A stretch of DNA of 64,000 nt from Verrucomicrobiia bacterium (GTDB lineage Bacteria; Verrucomicrobiota; Verrucomicrobiia; Opitutales; Cerasicoccaceae), in NCBI GenBank assembly GCA_030425485.1, contig JAUIAM010000003.1, positions 62,001 to 126,000 of the forward strand, written 5' to 3'. The notes beneath the pieces are model-generated. The model had not been told where the DNA came from. It saw only the letters and a list, made by a program, of their open reading frames with translations, and ran no database searches. Positions 28,912-53,400 of this stretch are shown here, one piece after another (the stretch's first letter is position 1; each line of letters starts with the position of its first letter). Made by a program: the position numbers and the translations under genes.

Positions 28912-28920
28912 TTACCTTTC

Positions 28921-32404: not shown

Positions 32405-32470
32405 GCAAGCGGCCCGCATGTGGCTACGCCACATGCGCCGCTTGGCAAGGGGGAAAAGTCCCCCCTTCGC
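32405..32470. other. Candidate origin of transfer (oriT) hairpin region
   Basis: A long inverted repeat joins GCATGTGGC (32416-32424) and GCCACATGC (32428-32436) around TAC. The arms extend outward to CAAGCGGC/GCCGCTTG with a 2-base bulge. A second inverted repeat follows (AAGGGGG...CCCCCTT), then a C-rich/T-rich tract. The region is noncoding, lies between a terminator and the mobilization genes, and has the form of relaxase recognition sites in mobilizable elements. No nick site is known. Confidence 0.6.
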
Positions 32471-32495
32471 TATCCCCCTTTTTCCGGCTTCGCCT

Positions 32496-32882
32496 GTGAA
32501 CCTTTCTGACAACCTGCCCAAGCGTGACCGCACCATCCCTCGCGTGCGGGTCACTGCCGCCGAGCTCGCAGCCATTCGCAAGCTCTATGGCCCACTGGAC
32601 CTCTCGCATAACATCCGGCTTCGCCTCCTGAAGGCCAGCCCGGGGAGGCCTCGTCGCGCGGTTACTGTCTTCGATCCACAGGTGCAAACCACTATCAACG
32701 CCTGCCTGAGCGAACTGGAATCTATCAGCCGAACCCTCGCCGAACACCGATATTCTCCGGCTCTGGCTCCATTCATCGCGGCAACTTTGGCCGCCATCGA
32801 GAAACATCTCATAACCATGATCGATGCTCATCAAATACCTGCGGATGACGATCGCCTACCTGCTCGGAGACCACGACAGTGA
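32496..32882 (+). CDS. MobC-like relaxosome accessory protein
   Basis: A small protein of about 128 residues. RDRTIPRVRVTAAELAAIRK and LDLSHNIRLRLL resemble the ribbon-helix-helix DNA-binding start of MobC-like proteins, which bind oriT and aid the relaxase. I chose GTG 32496. The longer ORF that begins at 32418 would place the oriT-like hairpin inside the coding sequence. Its 3' end overlaps the relaxase start by 59 bp in another frame, a usual relaxosome arrangement. Confidence 0.65.
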   Translation: MNLSDNLPKRDRTIPRVRVTAAELAAIRKLYGPLDLSHNIRLRLLKASPGRPRRAVTVFDPQVQTTINACLSELESISRTLAEHRYSPALAPFIAATLAAIEKHLITMIDAHQIPADDDRLPARRPRQ

Positions 32883-33990
32883 AGGCAATAAAAGACACAC
32901 ACCACCCGTTGTGCTTCGGGGGAACCCGGACTTTGCGCAACGCCTTGCGGATCAGCTCACCGGAGGCGACCGCTACACATCCTTCGTCTTCATGGACACC
33001 ACGGATTGGGAGACCTTCGGTGGCCGGGACGAGTTCGAGCGTTTTGCCAATACCGTTGAGCGTGACATTTTTGCGGGTATGGAGAAGCACGAATACCACG
33101 CCCTTTGGGTTGGTCATCCGCGTAAAGACGGCAAAACCGAAGTCAATCTGTACATCCCCAACGTCCACCTGCCCACCGGCAAAAAGCTCAAATCCTACTA
33201 TGCGCCGGTGGACAAACGACGCCTCCAGGACCTTATGGAAATTTATTCGCGGGAACGCGGATTATCCTGCGCGCGCGATCCTCGGCGTCGCCAGGCCTGC
33301 ACCCATAAGGATCATCTCCCCGAGAACCGCAAACAGGCACTGGAAATTATTACCAAAGATGTGGTCAAAGCGATCTACCACGGGCAGATCCGGGACCGCA
33401 GCGACGTTGTATGCTATCTGGAGGGGCAAGGCTACACATTGGCCAGGAAAAAGAAGGTGCTCTCCATCAAGTCGGACAAAGGCAAAAATCTCCGTCTGCA
33501 CGGATGGCCCTTCGACCCAGACTTTGACGCGAGCAAACGTCACAAAGATATCCGGCAGGCCTACAGCGCCTACTGCCTCAAGGATGAAGAACAGCTACGC
33601 CAACTGCGCTGGCGCTATGCGCGTCAACTCGTCAAACGCCGACGCCGACACCGCGAACGCTACCACAACAAATCCACTGACTCAAATAAACTGAAAGGAC
33701 TTCCCGAACACACGGATCACCATGAAAAGTTTACTGGATACCTTAGTCAGTTCATCCGCAAACTTGGAAAGCGACTTGCCGCCGTCCAAGCCAACGCTAC
33801 GCCTGAGCCCGACTCCCAACCTCACACGGTTCCTGCCCAAGGATTTTTTGGGCACCTGCGACGTCTATGGGCCCGTGGACCGCTGGCCCGATCCTTACGA
33901 CACCCGACGAAATCCAGACGGGCATGGATGCTTGGTCATCGTCCATCTGATGCCATCCGGCAGTGGCCAGATCGTGATCTTGATCGATAA
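32824..33990 (+). CDS. Relaxase/mobilization nuclease, HEN-type
   Basis: Nicks oriT and leads the transferred strand. Typical relaxase sequence is seen in residues 90-125: YHALWVGHPRKDGKTEVNLY followed by IPNVHLPTGKKLKSYY. The metal site is His98...Glu106-x-Asn108, like the HEN triad of ColE1 MbeA instead of the three-histidine form. A conserved cysteine/histidine group (SCARDPRRRQACTHKDH) follows near 150. The C-terminal third is basic and overlaps the next gene by 269 bp in another frame. MLIKYL is a normal relaxase start; ATG 32845 is an alternative. Confidence 0.8.
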   Translation: MLIKYLRMTIAYLLGDHDSEGNKRHTPPVVLRGNPDFAQRLADQLTGGDRYTSFVFMDTTDWETFGGRDEFERFANTVERDIFAGMEKHEYHALWVGHPRKDGKTEVNLYIPNVHLPTGKKLKSYYAPVDKRRLQDLMEIYSRERGLSCARDPRRRQACTHKDHLPENRKQALEIITKDVVKAIYHGQIRDRSDVVCYLEGQGYTLARKKKVLSIKSDKGKNLRLHGWPFDPDFDASKRHKDIRQAYSAYCLKDEEQLRQLRWRYARQLVKRRRRHRERYHNKSTDSNKLKGLPEHTDHHEKFTGYLSQFIRKLGKRLAAVQANATPEPDSQPHTVPAQGFFGHLRRLWARGPLARSLRHPTKSRRAWMLGHRPSDAIRQWPDRDLDR

Positions 33991-34245: not shown

Positions 34246-36087
34246 ATGAAAGACACACTCGATTCAAAGGGCTTCTTACGATTCACGCGCTGCCCGACGG
34301 CGGCTTATTACGGCTGGAGCGGGCAGCCAACCGGTACCGGGGACGATCCCTTTCTGACTTTCCTTGGGCAGGAGGCAAAGACGATCCGACGCCTTGCCTG
34401 GAGGCTGTTTCCAGACGGCCATCACATTGGCCAAGCCGACCCTGTTCGCGTCGCTACCCTGACACGCAAGCATTTGCAAGAAGGTACAGCGCCTGTCTTC
34501 GGAGGGTGCGTATTGGTCGATAACACCATTGCGCATCCCGACGTTTTGATTCGCAAAGAGCGGGACCTCCACCTGATTACGATCAAATCAAAAGCAGGAA
34601 ACATAGACGCTCACCGGGCGGGTAAGATGCTCGTCACGATGTACGGTGGGATTCGCGCCTGTTGGAAGGACTACGTCTATGAGTTGGCCTTTCAGTGTGC
34701 GGTGCTCAGGCAAGCCTGGCCGGATCTACGCATCGTGCCATGGCTACTGCTGCCCGAATGCAACACCCCGGCGGACGCGGAAGAAATCACTTCAGCCCAA
34801 GCAACTCCTGCACCATTGCCGGAGGAACATGATGACGAGATTACGCGCAGGCGCCGCCGCTCTGTCCTGAAGTTCTTCCCGGCCAGCAAAGCCGTCGATC
34901 TTATCGCGGATGAAGTTGATGCTGCCATGCGCGAGATGAAGAAGCTCTGGCGTTCCGGCGAGCGCCCGGTCTCGCCCCTGAAGTATGCCTGCCGCAATTG
35001 CGAATTCAGGTCCGGTAACGGACGGGATGAAACAGATGGCTTTCACGCCTGCTGGGGCAAGCTGGCCAGGCCCCGTCCACATCTCTTCGACTTATACCAA
35101 TTGTACAGCCTGAAGCAGCCCGGTCATCGGCAGGCACTGTTGGCTGATGCCAAAATTGAAGCCGGGCAGACGGCGCTCTTCGACATTCATGAAGACGAGT
35201 TGCAGGGCGAGCATGCTGCCCGCCAGCGTATGCAGTTACGGGGGCTGCGCGAGAACCGCGAAATCATCGACCCGCGCCTGAGCGAACGCATAGCCGAACT
35301 CCGCTGGCCAGTCGCCTTTTTGGATTTTGAAACCACCCTGTCGGCCATTCCCCGCCATCCGGGGCTGAAGCCTTACCAGACGTTGCCGTTCCAGTTTTCG
35401 TGCCACGTTTTGCACGCAGATGGTTCCTGCGAGCACCGCGAGTGGCTCAACACCGAAAACCGCGTGCCAACCCTCCCGTTCATTCGTGCTCTCATGAGAG
35501 CGTTGGCCGATGTTGGCAGCATTTGCGTCTATACCGATTACGAGAACCGCATCTTGAAAGAAGCGCTGGGATTTCTCGCCACATTGGACGAAGACACCCA
35601 GACCGAACGCAGTTGGATCTTTGACCTGCTTCATTCCGGTCAAATCGTGGATCAGCACCAGTGGGTCTATGATTACTGCTTCCACCCGCAGATGGACGGC
35701 GGTCGCACCTCGATCAAAAAAGTGCTGCCCACGCTTTGGAAAAGCAACCCTTCGTTGTGGAAACACCCGGTTTTTCGTTCCTACTACCGGGAGCGCAACG
35801 GTGTAGTCCTCGACCCTTACGAAACCTTGCCGGAGCATACGTTTAACGGAGAGTCATTCAGCGTGCGTGAAGGCTGTGCCGCCATGCGGGCCTACCGGGA
35901 AATGCTCTATGGCTCTGGATCAAGTTGTCCGCAAACGCAGGAGGCACTGGCTGCAATGCTGCGGGCGTATTGCAAATTGGATACACTTAGCCAGTGGATC
36001 ATCTTCGAACACTGGCAAGAACGACTACAAATGGGTTCACCACGCCGGGAACATAAAAATGAAGTCGTCGTAGCGGCGGTTTCTTAA
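34246..36087 (+). CDS. DUF2779-type nuclease, Cas4/RecB-like plus DEDD exonuclease-like
   Basis: A 613-residue protein with two parts. The N-terminal half (GFLRFTRCPTAAYYGW, then PDVLIRKERDLHLITIKSKAG) is of the PD-(D/E)XK Cas4/RecB type with a later cysteine pair (YACRNCEF). The C-terminal half begins VAFLDFETTLSAIPRHPGLK and PYQTLPFQFSCHVL, the hallmark of DUF2779, whose DFE looks like the first motif of DEDD exonucleases. Biochemical role is unknown; DNA processing of the transferred element is possible. It leads a five-gene run toward the coupling protein. Confidence 0.78.
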   Translation: MKDTLDSKGFLRFTRCPTAAYYGWSGQPTGTGDDPFLTFLGQEAKTIRRLAWRLFPDGHHIGQADPVRVATLTRKHLQEGTAPVFGGCVLVDNTIAHPDVLIRKERDLHLITIKSKAGNIDAHRAGKMLVTMYGGIRACWKDYVYELAFQCAVLRQAWPDLRIVPWLLLPECNTPADAEEITSAQATPAPLPEEHDDEITRRRRRSVLKFFPASKAVDLIADEVDAAMREMKKLWRSGERPVSPLKYACRNCEFRSGNGRDETDGFHACWGKLARPRPHLFDLYQLYSLKQPGHRQALLADAKIEAGQTALFDIHEDELQGEHAARQRMQLRGLRENREIIDPRLSERIAELRWPVAFLDFETTLSAIPRHPGLKPYQTLPFQFSCHVLHADGSCEHREWLNTENRVPTLPFIRALMRALADVGSICVYTDYENRILKEALGFLATLDEDTQTERSWIFDLLHSGQIVDQHQWVYDYCFHPQMDGGRTSIKKVLPTLWKSNPSLWKHPVFRSYYRERNGVVLDPYETLPEHTFNGESFSVREGCAAMRAYREMLYGSGSSCPQTQEALAAMLRAYCKLDTLSQWIIFEHWQERLQMGSPRREHKNEVVVAAVS

Positions 36088-36106: not shown

Positions 36107-36526
36107 ATGAATAAAAAATATAAGAACAATCGCTCCGCACAAGTCGCCCGTCAGGTCAAACGCAACCGCGCCCGCAATCTGCCGCGCCTGGAAAAACTAA
36201 AAGCCTGTGTCGGGTGCATGAAATGCGGCAAATCGATTCCCGGTAAATACCTCGACGCACACCACGTCGATGAGACCCGAAAGTTTCGGAACCTGGCTCA
36301 TCTGGTTGACCGCCGTTGGCTACGGGTCGTTCGCGAAATCTTCGGCATTGACCGCGACGCGCCCCACGGGGGAGGCCCGGTGGAATTTATCTGCCAGCGT
36401 TTTCACGAAGAGCGTCACCAACTCGGCGAAGACGCCCGGACGTGCATTGAGCTGGAGAAAGAAGGCTTCGAGGAGCCTTGGCGCATCCATGCCCGCAACC
36501 CGAAACGCCGTCACACCGAAAACTAA
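36107..36526 (+). CDS. HNH-like zinc-binding protein
   Basis: A basic 139-residue protein. CVGCMKCGKSIPGKYLDAHHVDE has the CxxC pair and the following HH of HNH-type endonucleases; a later FHEERHQ may add ligands. The N-terminus is very Lys/Arg/Asn-rich. Nuclease activity is inferred from the motif and is not certain, since the third HNH element is unclear. It sits 20 bp after the DUF2779 gene and 6 bp before the next gene. Confidence 0.6.
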   Translation: MNKKYKNNRSAQVARQVKRNRARNLPRLEKLKACVGCMKCGKSIPGKYLDAHHVDETRKFRNLAHLVDRRWLRVVREIFGIDRDAPHGGGPVEFICQRFHEERHQLGEDARTCIELEKEGFEEPWRIHARNPKRRHTEN

Positions 36527-36532: not shown

Positions 36533-37024
36533 ATGCAAACCTTACTCATACATACCTTCACCCGGCACGAAGTTGAAAAGCTCGATTTTCAGCGCTTCGA
36601 TGCCCTGTTTTCACACTGGCCTCAGCTGTGGGCTCGTGAACTGCGGCCGAAACTGGATAGCCTCGTGCTACTGGTTGACGGCTACAACGATCACCCGGAT
36701 GAGGTTTACCTCATCCCCGAGGTGCGCGCCTTTTTCCGGGCCCTTCACCAACGCTGGCCCTGGTGGTGCTACTTCCTCAACCTTGAAAGTCAGTCCCTGC
36801 AGATGACCTACCTCTGTCTGATCGACTCCGTTCAGTCCATCAAGCGCGACGGCTCGCCAAGTTGTGCCGCCACCTTTGATCCCTCCGAAATCGCCGACAT
36901 TCTCATGGCGGACCTGGGGCGTATGAACTGGCTCTGGGAGCACGCGGGATTGCCGGAATCCGAAAATGACTGCAGGTCGGACCAAATCCTCAACGCCTTT
37001 AACGGAGGAGCTTCCCATGGATGA
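36533..37024 (+). CDS. Unrecognised 163-residue protein before the coupling ATPase
   Basis: A soluble acidic protein rich in Trp, Leu and Phe. No motif or signal peptide is seen, and I do not recognise it. It is in a tight operon: 6 bp after the HNH-like gene, and its end overlaps the coupling-protein start by 8 bp. Translation is therefore probably coupled to that ATPase, which suggests a partner role in transfer. Confidence 0.6.
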   Translation: MQTLLIHTFTRHEVEKLDFQRFDALFSHWPQLWARELRPKLDSLVLLVDGYNDHPDEVYLIPEVRAFFRALHQRWPWWCYFLNLESQSLQMTYLCLIDSVQSIKRDGSPSCAATFDPSEIADILMADLGRMNWLWEHAGLPESENDCRSDQILNAFNGGASHG

Positions 37025-38384
37025 GCCCATTATTAGACTCAATTGCTACGAGCCTGCTGGGACGAGTTTAGATTTTTCCCGGGAGGACTTGCTGGGACAT
37101 ACCCTTGCCATCGGCGGCAGCGGCTCGGGCAAAACCACCCGGCTGGTTTACCCGATGGTCGAGCAGCTCATCCGCCAAAGAGATGTGCCTGCCAGTCTAT
37201 GCATCATTGACACCAAGGCCGATAGTTCCATGCAGGCCATCGTAGAAACGGCCTGCCGAGAGGCGGGACGCGAAAACGACTTCCTTGTCATCGATGGTGC
37301 CCGCGATGCCGCATTGAATATCCTAAATCCGGATATCAGCCTGGACATGGACCGTGTCGATGCTCTGGCAGGCCTGCTCGCTTCTTCGATACCGAGCGAT
37401 AGCCTGAATCGCTTCTGGGAGCAGACCTTCGAAGCTTTGCTGCGGCAAGCCTTGCGCCTGCATGCTTTTAACCCCAAGGCAGAGCCCACCTATACCGGGA
37501 TGGTCAGCCATCTGATGCGCTACCTGCTCCTGCACCGTATCCACGATCCACACTACCTGGAGTTGATCAAGCATCTGTCAGTAACACGCTGTAAGCACGA
37601 GCGTTCGCACCAACTGATAATCGACGAGGTGATCGCCACGCACCAGATGTGGGAGACGCTCGACCATCGCACCCGCACCAACTTGCAAAGCATGGCTGCC
37701 AGTGTGTTGGCTCCGATGAACCACATGGTAACCCACCGGTACTTCGCGGGTAATAACGCCGTGGATATCGGCACCGCCATGAACGCGGGAAAGGTTGTGC
37801 TCATCAGCATTGATGCCTTGCGCCATCCCGAGTGTGCGCGCTTACTGGGATGTATCATCAAAGGACATTTTTATGACAGTGTCCTTGGTGAGACTGGCAG
37901 CAGGCATTTGAAAGGCCTCGTACTTGACGACTGGCCCATCGCGGTGACTGCCGGGCGTAGTAATCGTTACTCCGATGTCGAAGCCCTGTCCATGATCCGC
38001 AGCCGCGGTGGCTTTCTGATCGCTGCCACCCAGAGCCTGGCCGCCCTGGATGTGGCGATTGGAAGACCAGCGCGGGAGGCCGCGCTGGCCAACTTTGCCA
38101 ACTTAGCTTTTTTCCGCAGTCGAGACCCGGAGGTGGATGCCCTCGCCGCTGCCTATCTCGGGCAGAAGAAAGACAAGCTCGTGGACGTATCCCAGATAGA
38201 CCGTCCTCCTTTACCCAATCGTATTGATTATCCGATACGCATTGAACGCGAATTACGCGTGCCTGCCGTGCCGCCCGGTGCATTGGCCCGTCTGGCAACC
38301 GGCGACGCTTACGCGCTCATCGGCCCGAAGGTATTCAATGAGCCACACTGCATGGTTCCCACGTTTATCGCTCAACCTCAATAA
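37017..38384 (+). CDS. VirD4/TraG-like type IV coupling ATPase
   Basis: Couples the relaxosome to a type IV secretion channel. Walker A GGSGSGKTT (33-41) and Walker B LVLDDW (301-306) are present. ATQSLAAL and the C-terminal AALANFANLAFFRSRDPEVD block match TraG/TraD-like sensors. It is short (455 residues) and lacks the N-terminal membrane helices of full VirD4, so it may be a soluble variant. I chose ATG 37017 because GGAGG precedes it at proper spacing; the longer ORF starts inside the previous gene. No VirB genes are in the window. Confidence 0.82.
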   Translation: MDEPIIRLNCYEPAGTSLDFSREDLLGHTLAIGGSGSGKTTRLVYPMVEQLIRQRDVPASLCIIDTKADSSMQAIVETACREAGRENDFLVIDGARDAALNILNPDISLDMDRVDALAGLLASSIPSDSLNRFWEQTFEALLRQALRLHAFNPKAEPTYTGMVSHLMRYLLLHRIHDPHYLELIKHLSVTRCKHERSHQLIIDEVIATHQMWETLDHRTRTNLQSMAASVLAPMNHMVTHRYFAGNNAVDIGTAMNAGKVVLISIDALRHPECARLLGCIIKGHFYDSVLGETGSRHLKGLVLDDWPIAVTAGRSNRYSDVEALSMIRSRGGFLIAATQSLAALDVAIGRPAREAALANFANLAFFRSRDPEVDALAAAYLGQKKDKLVDVSQIDRPPLPNRIDYPIRIERELRVPAVPPGALARLATGDAYALIGPKVFNEPHCMVPTFIAQPQ

Positions 38385-38392: not shown

Positions 38393-38932
38393 ATGAACGC
38401 ATCTGACTATCATTCTGACGAAGCCACCGCCCATTACGTGGCATACAATAAACTGTCCGAGGAAGAACGGCGAATCGGGCACCTCAACTGCCGGGACTAC
38501 CTCATTGAGTACCACCGGGAGATGGGTGAAACCGCTCCCAGTCCACCGCGCAAGTTGTTCGAAGTGCTCGATGCCATGCCAACCATACGCAGCGATGTGG
38601 CAGAAGCGGACTTGCTGGTGCAGGCCTTTGAAGGCAGTCATTTGGATATCCCAAACGGACTGCTGGAATTGCCACTCATGTGGGCTTATCCGATCCGCGA
38701 AATGATCCTTGATACGCACTGGCCTGCGTATCCGACCTGTCATGTCAAAGACGTGTTTGGCTGGGACATGGTGCTACGGGTGGGGTCTCATCTGCACCTC
38801 ATTTACCCCCAACCGCTTTCTGCTCAAAACTCCCACTGGTGTGAGGTAGGAGCCTTTATCCTGGAGCTTCACCGCCGCTTTGAACCCGGACCATACACGC
38901 CTGCGGGGCGGTTGTGCGAGTTTTCCAGTTGA
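38393..38932 (+). CDS. Unrecognised 179-residue protein after the coupling ATPase
   Basis: Starts 9 bp after the coupling ATPase and closes the operon. No transmembrane helix, signal or known motif is seen. It contains several conserved-looking Trp/His/Tyr positions (HLNCRDYLIEYHREMG; GSHLHLIYP). Its role cannot be told; position suggests a part in the transfer module. Confidence 0.55.
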   Translation: MNASDYHSDEATAHYVAYNKLSEEERRIGHLNCRDYLIEYHREMGETAPSPPRKLFEVLDAMPTIRSDVAEADLLVQAFEGSHLDIPNGLLELPLMWAYPIREMILDTHWPAYPTCHVKDVFGWDMVLRVGSHLHLIYPQPLSAQNSHWCEVGAFILELHRRFEPGPYTPAGRLCEFSS

Positions 38933-38983: not shown

Positions 38984-39721
38984 TTACGTAGGATTCAGTC
39001 TCGGTAGTTGGTGCTTTTGGAAAGCAGCAACTTTGGGCAGGCCGTTGGTCGATAACGTTGAAAAAAGCCCAGCCGCATCCAATTCGAGTTCGGAAATACT
39101 TTTCTTTGCCTGGTCAGTCGTAACGATATCCAGCAACCGTCCAAGGCAGTTAACCAATCCACGTTCGCTACGCTGGCCACCGCGTACGGTTTCCGTCAGA
39201 CCTTTTAGATAACAGGGGATGACCTGAAAGAGGATTCGGACATGTTTTGCATCCTGTCGTCCATCTTGAGAGAGCGTGGCAAGGTTAGCCAATTTGGCCT
39301 GCAATAAGATGACGGGAGAGGGCACTTTGACGGCTACTTGTCCGGTGCCGATCGTAAAAGTAACAGCATCCAGAAAGAGGTCTTCGGTACTGACTCCGTT
39401 CACCCAACGCAGCACTTCAAGGAGCAAGGGTATTTCCGATTCATCTTTAGGCATAATGTAGCCGACTGCGTTGTTCGGTGGCGAAAGGGGAAAATAGTGC
39501 GGTTTGAGGCCTGCAACTTTGGCAATCGATTTCAATGTTTCTCTATCCCCAAAAATATCGACATCTCGCGAGACAAAGGGGGCAAGGGACAGGGTCGCTT
39601 CCTGATAATAAAGCGCCCACAGGTTTACGGCTTGTCCACCCACGATGAGCAGCGGATCTTCGGTAGCCAGGAATCGTGAAAAGTCCTCTGGTGCGCGAAG
39701 GGTAGTCTCGGGAAGTGCCAT
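38984..39721 (-). CDS. Nucleotidyltransferase-fold protein, putative TA toxin
   Basis: A 245-residue protein with the start of a minimal nucleotidyltransferase: LLIVGGQAVNLWA, then SRDVDIFGD, the GG and DxD pattern that binds metal and NTP. Similar proteins act as toxins with small DNA-binding antitoxins, such as the AbiEii-like families. The upstream partner on the same strand is a small basic protein, as expected. The toxin role is inferred. Alternative roles such as antibiotic or RNA modification are open. Confidence 0.65.
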   Translation of the reverse strand: MALPETTLRAPEDFSRFLATEDPLLIVGGQAVNLWALYYQEATLSLAPFVSRDVDIFGDRETLKSIAKVAGLKPHYFPLSPPNNAVGYIMPKDESEIPLLLEVLRWVNGVSTEDLFLDAVTFTIGTGQVAVKVPSPVILLQAKLANLATLSQDGRQDAKHVRILFQVIPCYLKGLTETVRGGQRSERGLVNCLGRLLDIVTTDQAKKSISELELDAAGLFSTLSTNGLPKVAAFQKHQLPRLNPT

Positions 39722-39735
39722 CGCTCAGTGTCCTC

Positions 39736-40113
39736 TTACAGGTGCCCGGTCAAAGCAGGTCGCTTGGGTGACTGGTGAATGGAGTTACGCGTTTGTATCT
39801 CAATCGCATCTTGAAGCCCGAGGTCCAACGCGATCGCATCATATTCTCGCAAGGCTTTCTTATAGCGGGCTACTTGGGCTGGCGATCGCATGCGCTTGGG
39901 CGGCTTTGGCGCATGCGCCAGAAAAATAGAGCGCAGTTGCTGCTCCTGAGATTTGTCCCGGGCATGTCGGCTGACAAGCTCGCGGGCGGCTTGACGGATT
40001 AAATCCGTGGTTGTCATTCCTTCAGCACGGGCAATTTGCTCAAGCAGTGCGAGAACGGCAGTGTGCTCGGCCACCGTTTTGCGTTTTTTTGACGAGGAAA
40101 GCTGGTTGGGCAT
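39736..40113 (-). CDS. Small basic DNA-binding-like protein, putative antitoxin
   Basis: A 125-residue protein. VAEHTAVLALLEQIARAEGM and TTTDLIRQAARELVSRHARD have the pattern of ribbon-helix-helix or helical antitoxins. I started at MPNQLSSS (40113); a TTG 21 bp upstream is in frame. It is directly upstream of the nucleotidyltransferase gene, with a perfect palindrome just before its start. The antitoxin role is inferred from layout. Confidence 0.55.
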   Translation of the reverse strand: MPNQLSSSKKRKTVAEHTAVLALLEQIARAEGMTTTDLIRQAARELVSRHARDKSQEQQLRSIFLAHAPKPPKRMRSPAQVARYKKALREYDAIALDLGLQDAIEIQTRNSIHQSPKRPALTGHL

Positions 40114-40121
40114 TTTTACGA

Positions 40122-40138
40122 AAGGTTGATTCAACCTT
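40122..40138. promoter_or_regulatory. Perfect palindrome between the TA-like pair and the PcfJ operon
   Basis: AAGGTTGATTCAACCTT has 8-bp arms around a single T. It lies 9 bp before the antitoxin start and 63 bp before the divergent PcfJ operon. It is a likely operator for the antitoxin-like protein and could also control the divergent operon. Confidence 0.6.
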
Positions 40139-40200: not shown

Positions 40201-41334
40201 ATGCAAGTATCACTTAGCGAAGACGGCAGTATCACTATCGAGAATGAACACTATACGCCTTGGCCACGATTCCGCGCGCGCGAAATGAACCATCTTGGAG
40301 GTCGGCTCAACTACAAACACCTTAAGTGGCTAATCGAAGCCGAAGACCTTTTCTGTGATGGATGGCAGCGGTGCATACCATCGGAAATACTGTATGAACT
40401 ACGGTGCTATCCCGAGGGCCACGCCGAGCTGATCGAACTGGCTCAGCTCGACCAGCAAAAATTCGTTCACTTTTCCCGGAGCAATCCAGCCCTGACCGTA
40501 CTCGTTTCGGCATACTGGATCGCATTCGGATGGCGGAGAATCCCTTCAGTTTCCGAACGTAATGCCAGACGGAAAGAACTGCTTGGATTGAAGCCACGCC
40601 TTATCCTTGAAGCACTCGGATTGCCCGCATGCGATGAATGGGCACGTATCTTGAGCAAAATTCCCGTAGAGCATAGCCGCGATTACCATATCCGCCATGT
40701 CATCGAGCTTTGTAATGACAGTAAGGCACGCAGCCGTCTACGACACCTTCCGACGATTACTCAAGAGGTTTCTTGGCTACTACGGATGGAGCGTCCTATC
40801 CTCGATATGGCGTTGCTAGAGTTGGCCGCGAGCCAGCCCGTATACCGGGGACTATGCTTAACCGACATTATTGCCTCGATTATCTCCAAGCGGGAGATGG
40901 CGGTGCGTGAGCCTATCTGGCCCTATGATGGCAGTATCCGCAACTGGGAACAATTGCTGCGTGCGGAAAGGCGCAACGCCCGTAGATGTGGAGATGTTTC
41001 CGAGCAATTTCCAGCTCCCCCGGTGCCGCTGGAGAATATATCCGAAGGTCTGACGCTCGTGCCTCTAACAACTCCGCAGATGGTAAGTGATGAGGCTTCC
41101 GAGATGGGGAACTGTGTGGTCGATTACCTCAAATCCATCCAGTCAGGTGATCATTACCTCTATCGGATGGAAGCACCTGTTCGTGCCAGCGTCTTGCTTC
41201 GTCGAGGACGCTTTTGTTGGGAGTTAGAGGAGTTGGGTCCACCTTTCAACGAGGGGGAAGTTGATGACGAAACCGAGTGGCTGGTGACGCGCTGGATGCG
41301 CGCCAACTACAAGCATCACAAGCTGGGGAACTAA
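40201..41334 (+). CDS. PcfJ-like protein, first of two tandem copies
   Basis: A 377-residue protein with the PcfJ-like C-terminal block: LTTPQMVSDEASEMGNCVVD, then YLKSIQSGDHYLYR and MEAPVRASVLLRRG. PcfJ is known from conjugative plasmid pCF10 as an uncharacterised protein. The N-terminal two-thirds is helical and rich in Trp/Leu, without a known motif. It shares fold and layout with the following gene (8 bp away), so it is an old tandem duplication. The MGNC and Tyr/His positions are conserved between them and may be catalytic or binding residues. Confidence 0.72.
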   Translation: MQVSLSEDGSITIENEHYTPWPRFRAREMNHLGGRLNYKHLKWLIEAEDLFCDGWQRCIPSEILYELRCYPEGHAELIELAQLDQQKFVHFSRSNPALTVLVSAYWIAFGWRRIPSVSERNARRKELLGLKPRLILEALGLPACDEWARILSKIPVEHSRDYHIRHVIELCNDSKARSRLRHLPTITQEVSWLLRMERPILDMALLELAASQPVYRGLCLTDIIASIISKREMAVREPIWPYDGSIRNWEQLLRAERRNARRCGDVSEQFPAPPVPLENISEGLTLVPLTTPQMVSDEASEMGNCVVDYLKSIQSGDHYLYRMEAPVRASVLLRRGRFCWELEELGPPFNEGEVDDETEWLVTRWMRANYKHHKLGN

Positions 41335-41341
41335 AAATTCT

Positions 41342-42472
41342 ATGCTAAAAAATCTCCAGTTATTAAATGACGCTGTAATCCGTATCGACCAGGTGACCCT
41401 GTCCCCCTGGCCGTGCTTCAAAGTTGAAGGTGAGTGCGACAACCTGCCCAGCCTCCTGGCAGAGCTGTTGCTCTCCAATGAGAGCGTTCCACTGCTGTGG
41501 ACTGCAAAGGTTCCCGGCGAGTTGCGGCAGCTTTTGCTGTCGTTCCCCGAAAGCCTCATGCCCGATCTGCTGAAACTTTCGCAGATGTGGCCGGACAAGT
41601 TTGTTGACTGGGCACAGTGGTGCCCAGCCCTGATAACGCTACTTACGCAAACCAAAGCTGAGGATGGCAAACGTTGGGACGACTTTGATCGACTCCGGGC
41701 TATGCAAAGCGGCTGGCGTGAGGTGTTGAAACTAACAGATTGGCCCGTCTCCCACTCAATGCTCAAGCAGCTGAGGAAACTTCCAATCAACCATTGCAGC
41801 CCGCAAAACCTTGGAGCACTCCGAGCACACATCGGTGACCGCCGCAAACTCAAGCTCCTTCGTCATTGCAAACATATCTCCGGGCTCACACTGGAGACTC
41901 TCACACTGCCATCAGAGATGCTGAGCGTCCGGTTGTTGGAGTTCACTGAGAATGATCTTCTGCCACTAGAGGTGGAATCCCTCGTCGAACTCTGTCGAGA
42001 GCTTATTCACTTTCGCCGGGAACTTGGTCAGATGCCGCTCTGGGCCTACGGCCATGGACGCTTTTCTGCGAGGACACTTCATAATGCTGTCCAGCTCAAA
42101 CGGATGCTCATCTGCTGTAAAAAGCGAGGCGGGAAGGCGTGCTTTCCCGTGCCACCACTGCCCTCGATTAAGAGCAGTAAGTTCTGTATCGAACCTGTCA
42201 CTACACTCAGTACTCTTTACCGTGAAGGCAACACTATGCAAAACTGTGTTGTCAGTTATGGAACCCAAGTTTTGCAAGGCACGCATTACGTCTACCGGCT
42301 GAGCAAACCCGAACGCGCCACGGTGCTGCTCCTGCGCAACGGCGATGACTGGTACCCGGCCCAGATTAAAACTTACCGTAATGGTAATCCAAGACCTGAG
42401 ACTATCGAGCTCATCGAAAAGTGGCTTGGTACTACGCTGGAAAAGGAGGTTTCTGATGACTTCCCTTTCTGA
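41342..42472 (+). CDS. PcfJ-like protein, second tandem copy
   Basis: A 376-residue paralogue of the previous gene. It has LSTLYREGNTMQNCVVSYGT, then QVLQGTHYVYR and LSKPERATVLLLRNG, matching copy one in the (M)xNCVV, Y-x-YR and P-x-R-A-x-VLL positions. It also shares the start (LSPWPCFKVE, against YTPWPRFRAR). The bodies have diverged strongly, so the two probably have distinct partners. Its 3' end overlaps the AAA+ gene start by 17 bp. Confidence 0.7.
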   Translation: MLKNLQLLNDAVIRIDQVTLSPWPCFKVEGECDNLPSLLAELLLSNESVPLLWTAKVPGELRQLLLSFPESLMPDLLKLSQMWPDKFVDWAQWCPALITLLTQTKAEDGKRWDDFDRLRAMQSGWREVLKLTDWPVSHSMLKQLRKLPINHCSPQNLGALRAHIGDRRKLKLLRHCKHISGLTLETLTLPSEMLSVRLLEFTENDLLPLEVESLVELCRELIHFRRELGQMPLWAYGHGRFSARTLHNAVQLKRMLICCKKRGGKACFPVPPLPSIKSSKFCIEPVTTLSTLYREGNTMQNCVVSYGTQVLQGTHYVYRLSKPERATVLLLRNGDDWYPAQIKTYRNGNPRPETIELIEKWLGTTLEKEVSDDFPF

Positions 42473-43502
42473 AGATTTCAAAAAGAGGTTACTCGAACCC
42501 ATCGACAAATTGTTCAAGGAGGCGGTGGATGGGCTTGGCCCGGCACCTGCCTCCGGGGGGCGCAACTGGCAAGTACCGGATATGCTCGGTGGTACGCCCG
42601 GGGCGAAGGATCCCAAGCCGGCCAAAACGGTAAAGAAGGCGAAACCGGGCAAGGTCGATGAAACCGCTTTGCGCGAGGCGATGACGGAGCTCAATTCTCT
42701 TATCGGATTGCGCTCGGTCAAACAGGCGCTTGCTCGCCTGACACAGTTCGCCCGTATTGAATCGGAGCGTCGTCGGCTCAAGCTGCCATCCACGGGGATC
42801 ACTTTTCACGCGGTGTTTGCCGGATCTCCCGGAACGGGAAAAACGTCGGTTGCCCGCTTGCTGGGGCAAATTCTCAAGGCGCTCGGACTCTTGGAGCGAG
42901 GGCACACCATCGAAGCATCCAAGTCTATGCTGTGCGGCCAGTTTCTCGGCCAGACTCCACATCTAGTTAAGGAGGCCTTCGATAAGGCTGATGGGGGCGT
43001 GCTGTTTATCGACGAGGCCTATTCTTTGGTTGCGGGCGACGAGGACATGTACGGCAGGGAAGCTATTGACTCGTTGGTCAAATTGATGGAAGACCTGCGC
43101 GACCGTGTCGTCGTCATCGTGGCCGGATACGATGCTGAAATGGGCAAGTTCGTGAACTCCAACCCGGGACTACGTTCACGCTTCACCCGCAACATATTTT
43201 TCCCTGATTACAGTTCCACCGAGCTGCACGCTATTTTGAAGCAAACTTGCATCAGTAAGGGCTTCGATGTTTCCCAGGGCTTTTTGCTCCGATCTGAACT
43301 CATCTGGGAGGAGCTGGTGAAACAGGGCCTGACTGCCGATGCCAATGGCCGACTGGTCCGCACCGCCTTTGAGTGTCTGCTCGAAAACCAGGCCATGCGG
43401 TTGGAGCTACTCAGGCGAACCGAACCGCATCAACTATGCGAACTGCTCCCGGAAGACTGGGACCATGTGGAAGAACGGATAAACGAAAACTGTCATGATT
43501 GA
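42456..43502 (+). CDS. CbbX/SpoVK-like AAA+ ATPase
   Basis: A 348-residue ATPase of the CbbX/SpoVK/EccA-like group. A linker precedes LNSLIGLRSVKQALARL (about 79-95). Then come Walker A GSPGTGKTS (123-131), Walker B GVLFIDEAYSL (181-191), sensor region VVVIVAGYDAEM and arginine finger region PGLRSRF (238-244). Members remodel protein complexes. I chose ATG 42456, which has AAGGAGG at the right distance; the longer ORF begins inside the PcfJ gene. It overlaps the next gene by 8 bp. Confidence 0.85.
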   Translation: MTSLSEDFKKRLLEPIDKLFKEAVDGLGPAPASGGRNWQVPDMLGGTPGAKDPKPAKTVKKAKPGKVDETALREAMTELNSLIGLRSVKQALARLTQFARIESERRRLKLPSTGITFHAVFAGSPGTGKTSVARLLGQILKALGLLERGHTIEASKSMLCGQFLGQTPHLVKEAFDKADGGVLFIDEAYSLVAGDEDMYGREAIDSLVKLMEDLRDRVVVIVAGYDAEMGKFVNSNPGLRSRFTRNIFFPDYSSTELHAILKQTCISKGFDVSQGFLLRSELIWEELVKQGLTADANGRLVRTAFECLLENQAMRLELLRRTEPHQLCELLPEDWDHVEERINENCHD

Positions 43503-44676
43503 AATAACATCCAAACCGTCACCCCAAGCCGCTTCATCTTTTTTCAAGGGGCTTCCGCCCGTCCTTCAAGAACGCGCTTGGCTTTGCTCAGTTGAACGAA
43601 AAGTGCCCGTTGAAATCCCACTCATGGCTGGATTGGCTGCCGCGTCGGCGGCCATCGGTAAAGGGCTGGTCGTTCAGTCTGGTCGACAGCGTGAGACGCG
43701 CGGCAACCTCTTTATACTGTTGGGGACGGCATCCGGCATCGGCAAGAGTGAGGTTTTTCGCGACATGCTGGAGCCCGTCCTGGGATTTGAAAAAGCATTA
43801 CATGACTGGTGGGAGCAGGAGCCGTCCGTGCGTGCCCGTGCTGGAGAGGAACTTTTGAAAGCTCAAATCTCGGGCCTGCGCGGGGTGGTCCGCAAGTTCC
43901 CGCGAGGCAGCTTTGAGGTTTTTAAAAGGCTACGTGATGCCGAGCGGAAAAGACTGATATGCACCCGCTATACTGACTCTCCCTGCCTGCTGGCCGACGA
44001 TGCGACGAGCGAAGCGCTGGGTGACCTCATGGCCCGTTCGGGCGAGACGATCGCGACGGTCAGTGCCGATGCGCGGTATCAGTTGAAGCGCCTTTCGGTC
44101 ACTGACTCAAAAGAAGAATCGTTTTTCTTAAAAGCTTTCTCGGGTGACTTGGCCCTGTCCAGCCGCATCACGCGTCGTGCTGCCCGGCTGCGCTCTCCAT
44201 GCCTGAGCGCCTTGTACCTGACGCAGCACGATGCTTACGGAGCATTCATTAAGAAAGCCGTACATACGCGGTCGGGTCTGTTACCGCGATTCCTCCATGG
44301 AAATTTCACAACCGTCGATGAAGAGGCTCCGAGACTTGATTTGCGCCGCGCCCCCACCATCCGCACTCAATACAGTAAGCGCCTTCAGGAATTGATCGAA
44401 GCTTACCGGTTCGAAGACGAATCGACGCTGGTCAAACCTGCCCAAGAAACAGCTCGCTACCTTGATGCGATTGAGAAGCGCTCCCGTCAAGGCGCCGCCA
44501 GCGACGAGAGCATTCAAGGCGAGATACTCCGTCGCCGGGCGGAGCAATGCTGGCGCGTGGCCCTGTGTCTCCATGCCGCAGAGCACTGTGCCCAATCTTC
44601 CTTGCATGCGCTTTCACTTGAACATGCCCAGTGCGCTGAGGCTATCGTTGAAAAGTTCACCCGCTTGGAAACTTGA
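43495..44676 (+). CDS. DUF3987-like P-loop protein
   Basis: A 393-residue protein. LFILLGTASGIGKSEVFRD gives a P-loop (GxxSGIGKS), then PCLLADDATSEALGDLMAR and LSVTDSKEESFFLKAFSGD follow the DUF3987 pattern, often found in primase-helicase-like proteins of mobile elements. Nucleic-acid or ATP action is inferred. Its ATG overlaps the AAA+ stop codon (ATGATTGA). It ends the main cassette, followed by a small gene 5 bp on. Confidence 0.72.
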   Translation: MIEITSKPSPQAASSFFKGLPPVLQERAWLCSVERKVPVEIPLMAGLAAASAAIGKGLVVQSGRQRETRGNLFILLGTASGIGKSEVFRDMLEPVLGFEKALHDWWEQEPSVRARAGEELLKAQISGLRGVVRKFPRGSFEVFKRLRDAERKRLICTRYTDSPCLLADDATSEALGDLMARSGETIATVSADARYQLKRLSVTDSKEESFFLKAFSGDLALSSRITRRAARLRSPCLSALYLTQHDAYGAFIKKAVHTRSGLLPRFLHGNFTTVDEEAPRLDLRRAPTIRTQYSKRLQELIEAYRFEDESTLVKPAQETARYLDAIEKRSRQGAASDESIQGEILRRRAEQCWRVALCLHAAEHCAQSSLHALSLEHAQCAEAIVEKFTRLET

Positions 44677-44680
44677 AAAC

Positions 44681-44884
44681 ATGAGTATTTCACAACACAT
44701 CGATCATGTCCAAGAGGACTATGAAGCTATTTTGCCCAAGCTGGATGAGATCTTGCACCGCATCCGATGCCTTCGGCGCACAGGCCAGGCAGGCAAAGAG
44801 AACCTCAGGCGTATCCGCCGTCTGGAACTCGACATCCTTGAGCTTCAGGACATTCTCCGCTATCAAGGCTATGCAGTTCAATAG
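44681..44884 (+). CDS. Small helical protein at the end of the PcfJ operon
   Basis: A 67-residue charged protein, probably a helical hairpin (HIDHVQEDYEAILPKLDEIL; RRIRRLELDILELQDILRYQ). The ATG at 44681 lies 5 bp after the DUF3987 gene stop. The longer open frame upstream is a shadow. Its 3' end overlaps the convergent 44878-45258 gene by 7 bp. Unknown function. Confidence 0.6.
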   Translation: MSISQHIDHVQEDYEAILPKLDEILHRIRCLRRTGQAGKENLRRIRRLELDILELQDILRYQGYAVQ

Positions 44885-47483: not shown

Positions 47484-47732
47484 ATGAAAAAGACCCAAAA
47501 ACAGCCTCCAAAGAATGAGGCAGGTCCCCGAATCAGGGAAATCCGGCTAGCGGCCAAGGTTGCTATCTCGCAAGAAGACCTGGCAGGTCGGTTGGCCAAC
47601 CAGGGGATTTCGATGGATCGAAGCGCCGTCTCCAGAGTGGAAAACCAAGAACGTTACCTGATGGATTACGAGCTCATCGCGTTTGCGCGGGCTTTGAAGG
47701 TTCCTCCGGCCAAGTTGTTGCCCGAGAAGTGA
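47484..47732 (+). CDS. XRE-family helix-turn-helix regulator
   Basis: An 82-residue DNA-binding protein. The HTH starts at IREIRLAAKVAISQEDLAGR and continues LANQGISMDRSAVSRVENQ; it ends DYELIAFARALKVPPAKLLP. It probably represses its own gene and the divergent four-gene cassette through the inverted repeats in the gap. The family is firm; the target is inferred. Confidence 0.88.
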   Translation: MKKTQKQPPKNEAGPRIREIRLAAKVAISQEDLAGRLANQGISMDRSAVSRVENQERYLMDYELIAFARALKVPPAKLLPEK

Positions 47733-49100: not shown

Positions 49101-49424
49101 ATGGCCTGCGTTCAACCTAGTGTTCGGCTGCCTTACGGTGTTAAATCGGGGAAATTGGTTCACGCCACCGAAACCGCACGTGGCTTAGCCTGTGGTTGCA
49201 CCTGCCCGGGTTGCGGTGCTCGCCTTGTTGCACACCAAGACTCCAAAGTCTCGGGACATTTCAAGCACCATCAGGCCCACGAGTGCACCATTGGGCTAGA
49301 AAGCACCCTACATCTGCTAGCCAAGGAATTATTGAAAGAGCACTGTTCAATCAACAGGCACAAACTCTACACGCCAGTCGAAATACAATTGAAGGCGTTC
49401 TCTTGGAAACAATGGCTCATCTAG
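49101..49424 (+). pseudogene. Truncated CoiA-like protein
   Basis: LPYGVKSGKLVHATETARGL, ACGCTCPGCGARLVAHQDSK and HFKHHQAHECTIGLESTLHL match the N-terminal zinc-finger part of the competence protein CoiA-like family. The family continues with a nuclease domain, but here the frame ends after 107 residues and runs into the convergent prepilin-type gene (78-bp overlap). It is probably cut by the junction of the polysaccharide cluster. Confidence 0.65.
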
Positions 49425-50081
49425 TAAAATGTCAGTCCACCCAGCATTCGGATTTCCATTGCCTTTGTCGATTGCGCTTATGGCCCAGATACTGGGATCG
49501 ACTTCGCCTACTACTCGGATCATGGAGATGGGAGAAGTACCCTCTCCTTGGGCTTGGGACGCGCTTTCATAGCCCCAAGGATTCACGTATTCTCCACTGC
49601 TGGATAAATTTACCCGATTGTTCATAAGATAGGCCGGTGTCTCAGGGCTTGGACGCATATCCTCAAATAATGGACTGCTCAAAAGAGGAAAATCGCGTTT
49701 AGTTCCATCAGGCTCTGGCAAACCAGCATAGACTGCGATATAATTACCCAGAATGCGACTACTACTATTCGCCTGAGGCGAAATGCCGTAATACGGTCTT
49801 TGGGCACTCCATAATGGGCCAGGTAAATAACCGTTATTATCCTGAGCGTAAAGCTGAATGGCAACTCCGACTTGGCGTAGATTGCTGGACGCGACAACCT
49901 TCTGTGATGAAATGCGAACCCGTTGCGTTCCAAGTATGAGGATAGAGACCAGAATGGCCACGACTGTGATTGAGGCCAATATCTCAATTAAGGTGAATGC
50001 TGGTGGCCGGTTGAAACGGTTCGTAGAAGTTCTGGGCAAGACGATAGTCAACATTAATGTACTCCTCAATTCAGGATTCAT
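49347..50081 (-). CDS. Prepilin-type (pseudopilin) secreted protein
   Basis: A 244-residue protein with the type II/IV pilin start PPAFTLIEIL followed by ASITVVAILVSILIL. Its cleavage site is Ala-Phe where Gly-Phe is usual. A globular part with SSNLRQVGVAIQLYAQDNNG (the DUF1559-like prepilin pattern) follows. Verrucomicrobia carry many such orphans. The ATG overlaps the end of the lyase gene by 11 bp, so it is coupled to it. Confidence 0.85.
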   Translation of the reverse strand: MNPELRSTLMLTIVLPRTSTNRFNRPPAFTLIEILASITVVAILVSILILGTQRVRISSQKVVASSNLRQVGVAIQLYAQDNNGYLPGPLWSAQRPYYGISPQANSSSRILGNYIAVYAGLPEPDGTKRDFPLLSSPLFEDMRPSPETPAYLMNNRVNLSSSGEYVNPWGYESASQAQGEGTSPISMIRVVGEVDPSIWAISAIDKGNGNPNAGWTDILLDEPLFPRERLQLYFDWRVEFVPVD

Positions 50082-52176
50082 TCGACGCAGACTCTATCTT
50101 TGGTTCATCTGGGGTAAACCGGACTTGAATAAACGCGTTTTCCGTTGCTTCTTCCAAGTAAATGCCTAAGCGCTTGATGCCGCGAGATGGCTTGGTGGCA
50201 AAGCCGGTAACCGGGGTAACGGAAAATGAGAATGGCTGCTTTCCAGTATCGATTTGTGCAAAGACTGATGCGCCTTTGTAACTCAATTCGACCGTGTTTC
50301 TACTTAGAATCTTGATCTCGCCCAAAGTTACCAGAGCGGTAGAAAAGGCCACTGGTTTACTCGCTTGCATCTGATCGCGAATCTCGATGAAGGAGTCCTG
50401 CTTTTGTGTGCGTCGGCCGTAGTGGACAGTTCGGGTAAGCTTGACCAGACCGGGAGAGCGATAGGCGTGAGTCAAGTCTATGACCATGATGTCACTTTCT
50501 TTACTCATGTGAGTGGATTCAACCGTGCCGTAAGCATCGGCGCCGGTTTTCTGCATACGGTTCGCTACCAGAGGAACCGGATGGCCGAATGAGTTGGTCA
50601 TATCGCTCTCGTAGCGATGTGATCCGAAAGACTTTTTGGTATAGCGTTCCATGCCCGGATCGACCAGTACTGGCACACCTCCACGAACGACTACAAAGCT
50701 CCCAATGTCATTGTGATTGTGAGACTCGCCGTTATTACCAACCCGTATGGCCAATCCGAGGCCATCAGGGTCTTCGTCACTTGGGCGAAAGATGAATATT
50801 TCACTGCTGGTAAACCAACTACGTAATGCTATGTTATCTTCTTCCTCGGGGGTATGCGTGAAATACTGAACAGTTGGGGCATTGGCGCCAAAGGTAGAAA
50901 GAATCAGTGAGTAGAGCTGGGGGGAGAGTGGATGGCGAAATCCCTTGCTGATAATGTCGAAGTGCGATGACGGGGAAAGGGGTAAGCCATAACGCATGGC
51001 GGCAAAGTCCGATAAGAAAAGATTGGCGGACGCATGGATCGGCTGGTCCCCGAATGCGGCGTAAACGCCATCGCCTATTTCCAGATTACGCGGAGATTGA
51101 CTGATAATGAACACCTTAGGATCTTCCAGTAAATCAATCGCGTCCTTGGTTGTTTGACGAATGGCTTCGCTTGCGTAGAGGTAATGGGAAAAGCCGAAAG
51201 CCCAGTAGTTGATTCCCTCTTCGCTAATACCATCGTCGGAAAATCCATCAATGTAGCGAGGAAGCATATCAAGTGCACAGGCAATGAACTCAGCGCGAAC
51301 CTCCGGGTCCTCCTCCAACGTGAGTGCTGTCCCGGTGATCGCACCTACGCAAACAGCCATCCAATTGTTTGGATTCGTCATCCACCACATAGGCCGTCCG
51401 TCGTGAACCGCACTCAAATAAGGATCAAGAACGCGGCGTTCGATTTCACTCTTAATGCGAGCTCGCAAATCTTGAGGCAACTTGTCGGCCAACCAATAGT
51501 CAATCGTTGCCAGCGACCAGGCTAGTTGGCAAGCCGCCAAGTCGACGACGATGCGCTTTCCCTCAAAAACCTCCAAATCTTTACCATGCGCAGGCACGCT
51601 CCATGCCCCTTGATTGAGTATCGCCAGAATGTTTTGCTCTATGGCGAGTAAAAAGCGACCTTGGTATTCTAACGCTTCGCCCAAAGCTAAATCCGCTAAG
51701 CGATTTATCCGTTGGCTGAAAGCATCCTGATAGGCTTTTCTGTCCCCAGTGCGTTCGTAGCACAGCCAAAGCTCACGCGTTAGTTCCGGGATTGGTTGCT
51801 TGAGTGCTTCTTCGGCCGAGGTGATCAGAGTCTGCCCTTGAGGCGTAGCGGTCAGAGGCTCCCATACCTGTCGGTCATAGGCGGGCGCTCCCACCCCTAC
51901 CGGTTTTTCTGTTACCAGGGCAGCGATGCTAGCGATAGTCTCCGCGTCCGGAGCCTTAGGTGGTGGCAAACTCCTTTGATTGTTACTGTTGCCCGAGGTA
52001 TCATCGCCAATCGCGGGCAAGGGCGACGGGGGCGTGAAGACTGTCTTCGAGGCCTCTGGGCCTGTTCGTACCGGTTTCTCCGTGGTTTGTTGAGGAGATT
52101 CCGGTTCGCGGCATCCGCCGAGGCCAACGACCAGCAGCGACATCAGTAAGCAGGGAAACAGGGTGTGAAATTGCAC
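50071..52176 (-). CDS. Heparinase II/III-like polysaccharide lyase, lipoprotein
   Basis: A 701-residue exported protein. The lipobox LGGC (Cys22) predicts anchoring as a lipoprotein. The N-terminal alpha/alpha barrel (about 100-400, with WWMTNPNNWMAVCVGAITGT) and the C-terminal beta domain with NNGESHNHNDIGSFVVVRGG and PGMERYTKK are of the heparinase II/III type, which cleaves uronic-acid-containing polysaccharides. The polymer is unknown; nearby sulfatases suggest a sulfated one. The start is GTG. The LacI gene lies 156 bp upstream. Confidence 0.88.
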   Translation of the reverse strand: MQFHTLFPCLLMSLLVVGLGGCREPESPQQTTEKPVRTGPEASKTVFTPPSPLPAIGDDTSGNSNNQRSLPPPKAPDAETIASIAALVTEKPVGVGAPAYDRQVWEPLTATPQGQTLITSAEEALKQPIPELTRELWLCYERTGDRKAYQDAFSQRINRLADLALGEALEYQGRFLLAIEQNILAILNQGAWSVPAHGKDLEVFEGKRIVVDLAACQLAWSLATIDYWLADKLPQDLRARIKSEIERRVLDPYLSAVHDGRPMWWMTNPNNWMAVCVGAITGTALTLEEDPEVRAEFIACALDMLPRYIDGFSDDGISEEGINYWAFGFSHYLYASEAIRQTTKDAIDLLEDPKVFIISQSPRNLEIGDGVYAAFGDQPIHASANLFLSDFAAMRYGLPLSPSSHFDIISKGFRHPLSPQLYSLILSTFGANAPTVQYFTHTPEEEDNIALRSWFTSSEIFIFRPSDEDPDGLGLAIRVGNNGESHNHNDIGSFVVVRGGVPVLVDPGMERYTKKSFGSHRYESDMTNSFGHPVPLVANRMQKTGADAYGTVESTHMSKESDIMVIDLTHAYRSPGLVKLTRTVHYGRRTQKQDSFIEIRDQMQASKPVAFSTALVTLGEIKILSRNTVELSYKGASVFAQIDTGKQPFSFSVTPVTGFATKPSRGIKRLGIYLEEATENAFIQVRFTPDEPKIESASNES

Positions 52177-52332
52177 GTGAAAGAGGTAATTAAGCGTTTT
52201 GCCAAGAAAGTCATTCCGAGCTAGCGGACTTTCGCCAAGCTAACCTTTTTGCTTTAAGGGCGGCAAGCAGCCTGTCTTTCATACTTATGGATTCGGTGTC
52301 GCTGTTAGAGATAAATATTTATATCCAGAAGC

Positions 52333-53391: not shown

Positions 53392-53400
53392 AAATGTCTA

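Follow-up and report, generated by a model that had tools for sequence, protein, structure and literature searches.

A tandem PcfJ, AAA+ and DUF3987 operon as the probable distal half of a coupling-and-replication module of mobilizable islands in marine Opitutales

The 64,000-nt stretch analysed here (hereafter the window; Verrucomicrobiia bacterium, GenBank assembly GCA_030425485.1, contig JAUIAM010000003.1, positions 62,001 to 126,000) contains an operon for two PcfJ-like proteins, an AAA+ ATPase, a DUF3987 protein and a small helical protein, and the question that it raises is what such a set of genes might do. An earlier note, made from the sequence alone, had proposed a replication, entry or defence module of a mobile element. 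Our analysis supports replication or entry best, as one functional set within a mobile element, and the operon is probably the distal half of a coupling-and-replication module for integrative mobilizable elements (IMEs) of marine Opitutales (Verrucomicrobiota). All five genes were confirmed as open reading frames (ORFs), with successive junctions of +7, -17, -8 and +4 nt, in agreement with the tight coupling first described; the AAA+ gene starts at the ATG at 42456, not at 42345.

40201-41334, + strand: module gene 6, PcfJ1, homologous to PcfJ2, 35-36% identical to the first copies in two related elements (G041 and G501, below)
41342-42472, + strand: module gene 7, PcfJ2, helical body with a C-terminal GNAT-like half-fold (PF14284, 5.8e-9)
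42456-43502, + strand: module gene 8, AAA+ ATPase of the SpoVK/CbbX/EccA clade with a conserved N-terminal extension (SpoVK, EccA and CbbX models; alignment)
43495-44676, + strand: module gene 9, DUF3987 protein, predicted MCM-like helicase motor (PF13148, 2.9e-32; phrog_2373 DNA helicase, 1.3e-20)
44681-44884, + strand: module gene 10, small helical protein of 67 aa, with homologues at the same place in G041 and G501

The five genes are the 3' end of a longer conserved block of nine to ten genes, whose start the earlier note had missed: it begins about 6 kb upstream, at a DUF2779 gene. According to family profiles, the full order is DUF2779, HNH-like protein, 163-aa protein, type IV coupling protein (T4CP), 179-aa protein, PcfJ, PcfJ, AAA+, DUF3987 and small protein.

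34246-36087, + strand: module gene 1, DUF2779 protein with a PD-(D/E)XK-like region at its N-terminus and DEDD-like exonuclease motifs (PF11074, 2.1e-24; alignment)
36107-36526, + strand: module gene 2, HNH-like zinc-finger protein by motif, 51-69% identity in three other elements
36533-37024, + strand: module gene 3, 163-aa protein without reliable family match, conserved in four of four elements
37017-38384, + strand: module gene 4, coupling ATPase of VirD4/TraD type that lacks a transmembrane domain (TMD) (SXT_TraD, 3e-14; DotL, 9.7e-10)
38393-38932, + strand: module gene 5, 179-aa protein, conserved in three of four elements

When 373 genomes of the order were searched for DUF3987, three close orthologues appeared, in Coraliomargarita sp. 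SDUM461004 (G041), the Puniceicoccaceae metagenome-assembled genome (MAG) DEBay_Spr20G08_39 (G501) and Verrucomicrobiae bacterium DG1235 (G678). The same three orthologues only were returned from some 85,000 species' genomes by a scan with the DUF3987 alignment, which relies on exact short patterns that distant copies may escape. The G041 homologues are collinear with the window from DUF2779 (34246) through the small protein, and the window, G041 and G501 share exactly the same overlaps of -17 nt (PcfJ2/AAA+) and -8 nt (AAA+/DUF3987). The DG1235 block has a single PcfJ, and its profile search gave no match to the 179-aa or the small protein. As it recurs in three other elements, the order of the operon in the window is not due to chance. 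No relatives were found in the viral contigs searched, and plasmids gave no DUF3987 match; their only PcfJ match, a partial one, was on a plasmid of Marinomonas and had no module genes around it. Plasmid matches to the AAA+ protein were of SpoVK/CbbX/EccA type and not informative, and a Bradyrhizobium 'TraM recognition + AAA' pair was discarded, since by our profile it appears to be a single AAA+ gene that is split. In G041, the AAA+ gene has a frameshift past its N-terminal extension (locus L026, near 12807-12813), from either a sequencing error or decay.

In DUF2779, the DEDD-like residues D360, E362, D469, Y575 and D579 are invariant in the alignment of six relatives, and the E-x-K of the PD-(D/E)XK motif is kept in G041, G501 and two further genomes (G414 and G386), whereas the window (ITIKSK) and DG1235 have lost it. 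The C-x2-C, D-x-HH and C-x3-HE motifs of the HNH-like protein are conserved. In two related islands, DUF2779 is directly followed by a HipA-type toxin gene in reverse orientation (L026:5586-6863 and L106:3331-4569), and the Puniceicoccaceae MAG has, upstream of its block, genes that by eye look like Wadjet jetABCD (L081:6129-12586).

On what kind of element does this block travel? On sequence grounds, that of the window is an IME of ~33.7 kb in a tRNA-Ala gene, because it combines a tyrosine integrase, an MbeA-type relaxase, repeats of the tRNA 3' end and a sulfatase/heparinase cargo, with no type IV secretion system (T4SS) found. The size follows from the recurrence of the tRNA 3' end and the following stem at the far border.

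28836-28911, + strand: tRNA-Ala (GGC), integration target (ARAGORN)
28888-28954, + strand: left att-like repeat (tRNA 3' end and downstream stem), 86.6% identity over 67 bp to 62587-62653
29137-30243, + strand: tyrosine integrase (NCBIfam recomb_XerA_Arch, 3.2e-8; Phage_integrase, 2.7e-4, and Phage_int_M, 2.4e-4, both under the Pfam cut-off)
32418-32882, + strand: small protein encoded upstream of the relaxase gene, perhaps a relaxosome accessory of MobC type (position and appearance alone; no family match)
32824-33990, + strand: ColE1/MbeA-type relaxase (NCBIfam NF047848 MbeA, 2.1e-32)
47484-47732, + strand: XRE-type regulator of the island (HTH_3, 2.3e-5)
62587-62653, + strand: right att-like repeat, beginning with the last 24 nt of tRNA-Ala, one mismatch

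The integrase begins 225 bp past tRNA-Ala. Relatives of the relaxase were found in 3543 plasmid records (best E 8e-32), 3378 of them typed as mobilizable. No T4SS family, and hence not the complete T4SS expected of an integrative and conjugative element, was detected among the main genes scanned inside the borders. A copy of the XRE-type regulator, 57% identical, lies downstream of the module in G041.

A relaxase adjoins all four copies of the block and a recombinase was found for three of them; the gene order tracks with relaxases and with integrases, the latter a link that the earlier note had proposed to look for. The relaxase is of MbeA type in the window, PF03432-like in G041 (1.7e-4, below the cut-off) and TrwC in both G501 (4.7e-65) and DG1235 (2.7e-55). 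The recombinases are of the tyrosine type in the window and DG1235 and of the serine type in G041, and the stretches of G501 that were read yielded none. Since relaxases and recombinases differ beside a constant block, comparison of the four elements makes the block a chassis whose parts persist as one relaxase gives way to another. Two more distant relatives of the T4CP keep part of the same company. In G414, a gene for a DnaB helicase comes directly after the homologous T4CP gene and overlaps it by 4 nt, with DUF2779 upstream; the pairing of T4CP and replicative helicase therefore recurs with an unrelated helicase. In G837, the T4CP gene is flanked by two genes for PD-(D/E)XK nucleases, and a homologue of the G041 relaxase is present without its HxH motif.

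These neighbours also bear on the defence option, according to which the DUF2779 and HNH-like nucleases, together with the ATPases, would form an anti-phage or anti-plasmid system on islands that senses and destroys invading DNA. Nuclease-like and ATPase genes do share one operon, the window and two related islands have toxin-antitoxin-like genes within or beside the block, and PADLOC reported weak cross-matches of the AAA+ protein to its IetA and TRIP13 models. However, the same tool had no match for PcfJ1, PcfJ2, DUF3987 and the small protein, that is, four of the five genes. DUF3987 and T4CP belong to replication and transfer families, the T4CP of G414 is paired with the replicative DnaB, and the relaxase next to every copy likewise speaks against defence. 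We consider defence quite improbable.

In the T4CP, the Walker motifs are conserved, and TraG-D_C (2.6e-6) and TrwB_AAD_bind both match over their cut-offs. No N-terminal TMD was detected, the maximal 19-residue hydropathy being 1.4-1.6 in the four copies. The block T4CP fits the subfamily without a TMD, whose described members work with small membrane proteins (PMC7434980); in keeping with this, in G501 an 86-aa hydrophobic protein is encoded by a gene that overlaps the T4CP start. A T4SS would have to be provided from elsewhere, and a possible helper, a T4SS cluster that looks full, is present in the same genome, on contig C18 (80001-99900), which encodes VirB4-like (PF19044, 8e-12), VirB10/TrbI (6e-16), VirB5-like, TrwC (2e-81) and ClpB-D2-like AAA+ proteins. 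In its main T4SS genes it shares 63-84% identity with a cluster of G041 (C86:1-20000), from another family of Opitutales; the TrwC ORF of the G041 cluster has only 417 aa. No T4CP profile matched in the C18 cluster, and the only VirB4 match in the genome of the window is on this contig. Another VirD4-like gene, whose product is membrane-anchored, is found on contig C14. The co-occurrence of the module with T4SSs is suggestive only.

Alternatively, the block might serve replication and maintenance only, as the replicon of the excised circle, with an MCM-like helicase, its AAA+ loader and a nuclease, and with a T4CP-like ATPase that pumps DNA for segregation rather than conjugation. The missing anchor in four of four copies would fit, as would the overlap of the helicase and AAA+ genes, and replication genes are frequent on IMEs (PMC5704250). 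Nevertheless, the T4CP matches are to conjugative coupling proteins, the relaxase is always nearby, and G501 has in addition the small membrane protein whose gene overlaps the T4CP start. Replication alone is an unlikely explanation.

As for the two ATPases of the operon, DUF3987 passes the gathering score of PF13148 (112.7 vs 27 bits) and, from its predicted structure (pLDDT 84), would be an AAA+ motor of the MCM fold. The matches listed by Foldseek were MCM motors, and all of the top 50 rows of a VIA comparison were MCM proteins, with Z of 15.8-17.6 and a root-mean-square deviation of 3.6-4.5 over 238-271 residues. By eye, its GLLPRF motif (261-266) resembles LLSRFD of MCM. DUF3987 is a predicted helicase because it takes the place of RepA, DnaB or MCM domains in primases of mobile elements (PMC5862659). 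A genome search with Pfam MCM was uninformative, with matches in all controls. The AAA+ protein (Pfam AAA+ match, 2e-17) was called CbbX-like in the earlier note, which holds as far as the clade is concerned (SpoVK 6.3e-67, EccA 2e-58, CbbX 7.5e-54, all below the family cut-offs), and its nearest PDB sequences are CbbX (2.6e-43) and EccA1 (2.5e-38). It is not CbbX proper, as it scores 182.9 bits against an NCBIfam equivalog cut-off of 459.25. No Rubisco or type VII secretion genes were found among its scanned neighbours.

PcfJ2 passes the PF14284 gathering score (36.3 vs 25 bits) and PcfJ1 misses it (17.6 vs 25 bits), but the two align over their full length with 27% identity (E 8.8e-22). A core of NCVV and Y-x-YR had been proposed to persist in both copies while their bodies diverged. 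The divergence and the Y-x-Y-R/K motif hold true, whereas the exact NCVV is confined to the two copies in the window; the family keeps the Cys, usually as NC or HC (NCIM, NCLI, NCIE, NCTE and HCVA in relatives), along with P-x-R-A-T, a Trp and an Asn. In the PcfJ tree, the module copies form one clade (99/96), and the split between PcfJ1 and PcfJ2 predates that between the window, G041 and G501, with weaker support on the PcfJ1 side (80/70). PcfJ-like proteins carried by many phages match PcfJ2 at 1e-7, and the phage records gave no match to PcfJ2. We found only passing mentions of PcfJ in the literature and no known function.

Comparison of PcfJ with known folds, which the earlier note had suggested, gave a lead only. 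The AF2 model of PcfJ2 has a pLDDT of 90; Foldseek found no significant PcfJ match in the PDB, and a PDB sequence search returned nothing useful for PcfJ or DUF3987. With VIA, nearly all top rows for PcfJ2 residues 270-374 were GNAT enzymes, with Z up to 7.1, and values below 8 may reflect merely a common arrangement. This raises the idea that PcfJ1, PcfJ2 and the AAA+ protein are a protein-modification or remodelling unit apart from DNA handling, whose GNAT-like domain would act on host or recipient proteins, for instance as an entry factor. Beyond the resemblance of the C-terminal half of PcfJ2 to acetyltransferases, the kinship of the AAA+ protein with the protein-remodelling ATPases CbbX and EccA1 and the presence of PcfJ-like proteins in many phages would be consistent with it. 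However, the R/Q-x-x-G-x-G/A acetyl-CoA loop was not seen by eye in PcfJ2, whose chain stops after the third helix, and the PcfJ and AAA+ genes are tightly coupled with those for DUF3987 and the T4CP. We regard such a unit as highly improbable.

The coupling-and-replication module could then operate as follows, the coupling, helicase and remodelling roles being those that we infer for its proteins. After excision, the element's own relaxase would nick its DNA, and the soluble T4CP would hand the complex of relaxase and DNA over to a T4SS that a conjugative element in the same cell provides. DUF3987 might form a ring that unwinds the element for copying in the donor or the recipient, while the DUF2779 and HNH-like proteins would process DNA ends or intermediates. 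The least certain steps are those of the AAA+ protein, which as a remodeller may thread a protein and thereby load the helicase or remove a relaxase or integrase complex, and of PcfJ1 and PcfJ2, its possible adaptors or substrates. It is tempting to go further and view the block as a relaxase-independent transfer chassis, kept while relaxases and recombinases are exchanged, in which PcfJ is the adaptor by which the AAA+ protein loads or recycles the MCM-like helicase on the transferred strand; we propose this version only tentatively.

Several observations weigh against a coupling-and-replication module. The sample is small, with four elements from one order. At 17 other PcfJ loci in the phylum, no AAA+, DUF3987 or T4CP gene of the module type is found nearby, and PcfJ is therefore not transfer-specific. 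The PD-(D/E)XK motif of DUF2779 is gone from two of the four block copies. The DUF3987 sequence does not match Pfam MCM, DUF3987 alone being reported at E up to 1, and the protein in the window lacks both a primase and a DNA-binding domain. Neither an oriT nor an origin of replication was identified. Lastly, VirB4 matches are absent from two of the four module genomes, and T4SS helpers were seen in the other two only.

Other features of the locus lie outside the core. In the window, the 179-aa gene and PcfJ1 are separated by 1.27 kb, within which lies a reverse-strand gene pair that was not found in the other elements.

38984-40134, - strand: GGQAV...DVDIF protein and ribbon-helix-helix (RHH) regulator (RHH_1, 6.6e-5), inserted, outside the core
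40122-40138: palindrome AAGGTTGA-T-TCAACCTT, at the 5' end of the RHH gene

The RHH gene (39736-40134, - strand) is divergent. Its 245-aa partner with the GGQAV...DVDIF motif is possibly nucleotidyltransferase-like, judged by eye, and the two perhaps form a toxin-antitoxin pair. The perfect palindrome previously noticed before the operon is real, but it belongs to the inserted RHH gene, which the other elements lack, and was ruled out as a feature of the module; it is probably the operator of that gene. Such repeats number 13 in the window, vs 6.6 (0-11) in shuffles. A 10-bp perfect inverted repeat with a 3-nt spacer (32415-32437), just upstream of the relaxase region, is a candidate part of oriT. 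The cargo (49347-62332) comprises genes for a heparinase-like protein, a LacI regulator, a PEP-CTERM protein, two sulfatases, a sodium:solute symporter (SSF) and a glycoside hydrolase, and is a sulfated-glycan utilization set on a mobilizable island. For an empty-site comparison with congeners, the genes that flank the island are of little use, as they belong to large paralogous families. A near-identical small island with an integrase-like gene, a TIR-like protein and a membrane-anchored VirD4-like ATPase occurs in the genome of the window and in a congener (L134, L135). Many stand-alone PcfJ genes occur in the phylum, in varied contexts that lack the partners found in the module (L027-L044).

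If our proposal is correct, PcfJ, widespread in phages, plasmids and bacteria, and DUF3987, a helicase by prediction only, gain concrete partners, and an adaptor role would be the first function for the PcfJ family. The block would also exemplify a modular, relaxase-swapping chassis for DNA transfer among marine Verrucomicrobiota, associated here with genes for sulfated-glycan degradation.

How does the module compare with known systems? Its AAA+ protein belongs by sequence to the same clade as CbbX, SpoVK and EccA but scores far under all three cut-offs and has a conserved N-terminal extension of its own. DUF3987 shares with MCM replicative helicases a predicted ATPase-motor fold over residues 18-393, LLPRF standing beside LLSRFD, unlike them lacks the MCM N-terminal domain and a Pfam MCM match, and is at ~12% identity a member of a mobile-element family. 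PcfJ of the Enterococcus conjugative plasmid pCF10 has a C-terminal PcfJ domain (PF14284) and is part of a transfer-related element. The same is true of the window, where, in contrast, PcfJ is a diverged tandem pair with a helical N-terminal body and an AAA+ partner, and no PcfK was seen. As in T4CPs that lack a TMD, the block T4CP has a VirD4-like ATPase core without membrane anchor, with a small membrane protein encoded just before it in one element (PMC7434980); in the window, by contrast, its gene overlaps the 163-aa gene and continues into PcfJ, AAA+ and DUF3987. IMEs that encode a relaxase and a T4CP of their own, and IMEs that carry replication genes, are known (PMC5704250), so that the kind of element is not new even though its set of parts, as first claimed, appears undescribed: we found no description of PcfJ-AAA+-DUF3987 for IMEs in the literature. 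The window shares with these IMEs integration at a tRNA site, an integrase, a relaxase, a T4CP, replication-type genes and the lack of a detected T4SS, and differs in its host, a member of the Verrucomicrobiota, and in its T4CP, which is VirD4/TraD-like without a TMD rather than TcpA. As far as we could find, what is new here is the composition of the block, with PcfJ, a SpoVK/CbbX-clade AAA+ protein and an MCM-like DUF3987 protein, and its persistence across relaxase classes.

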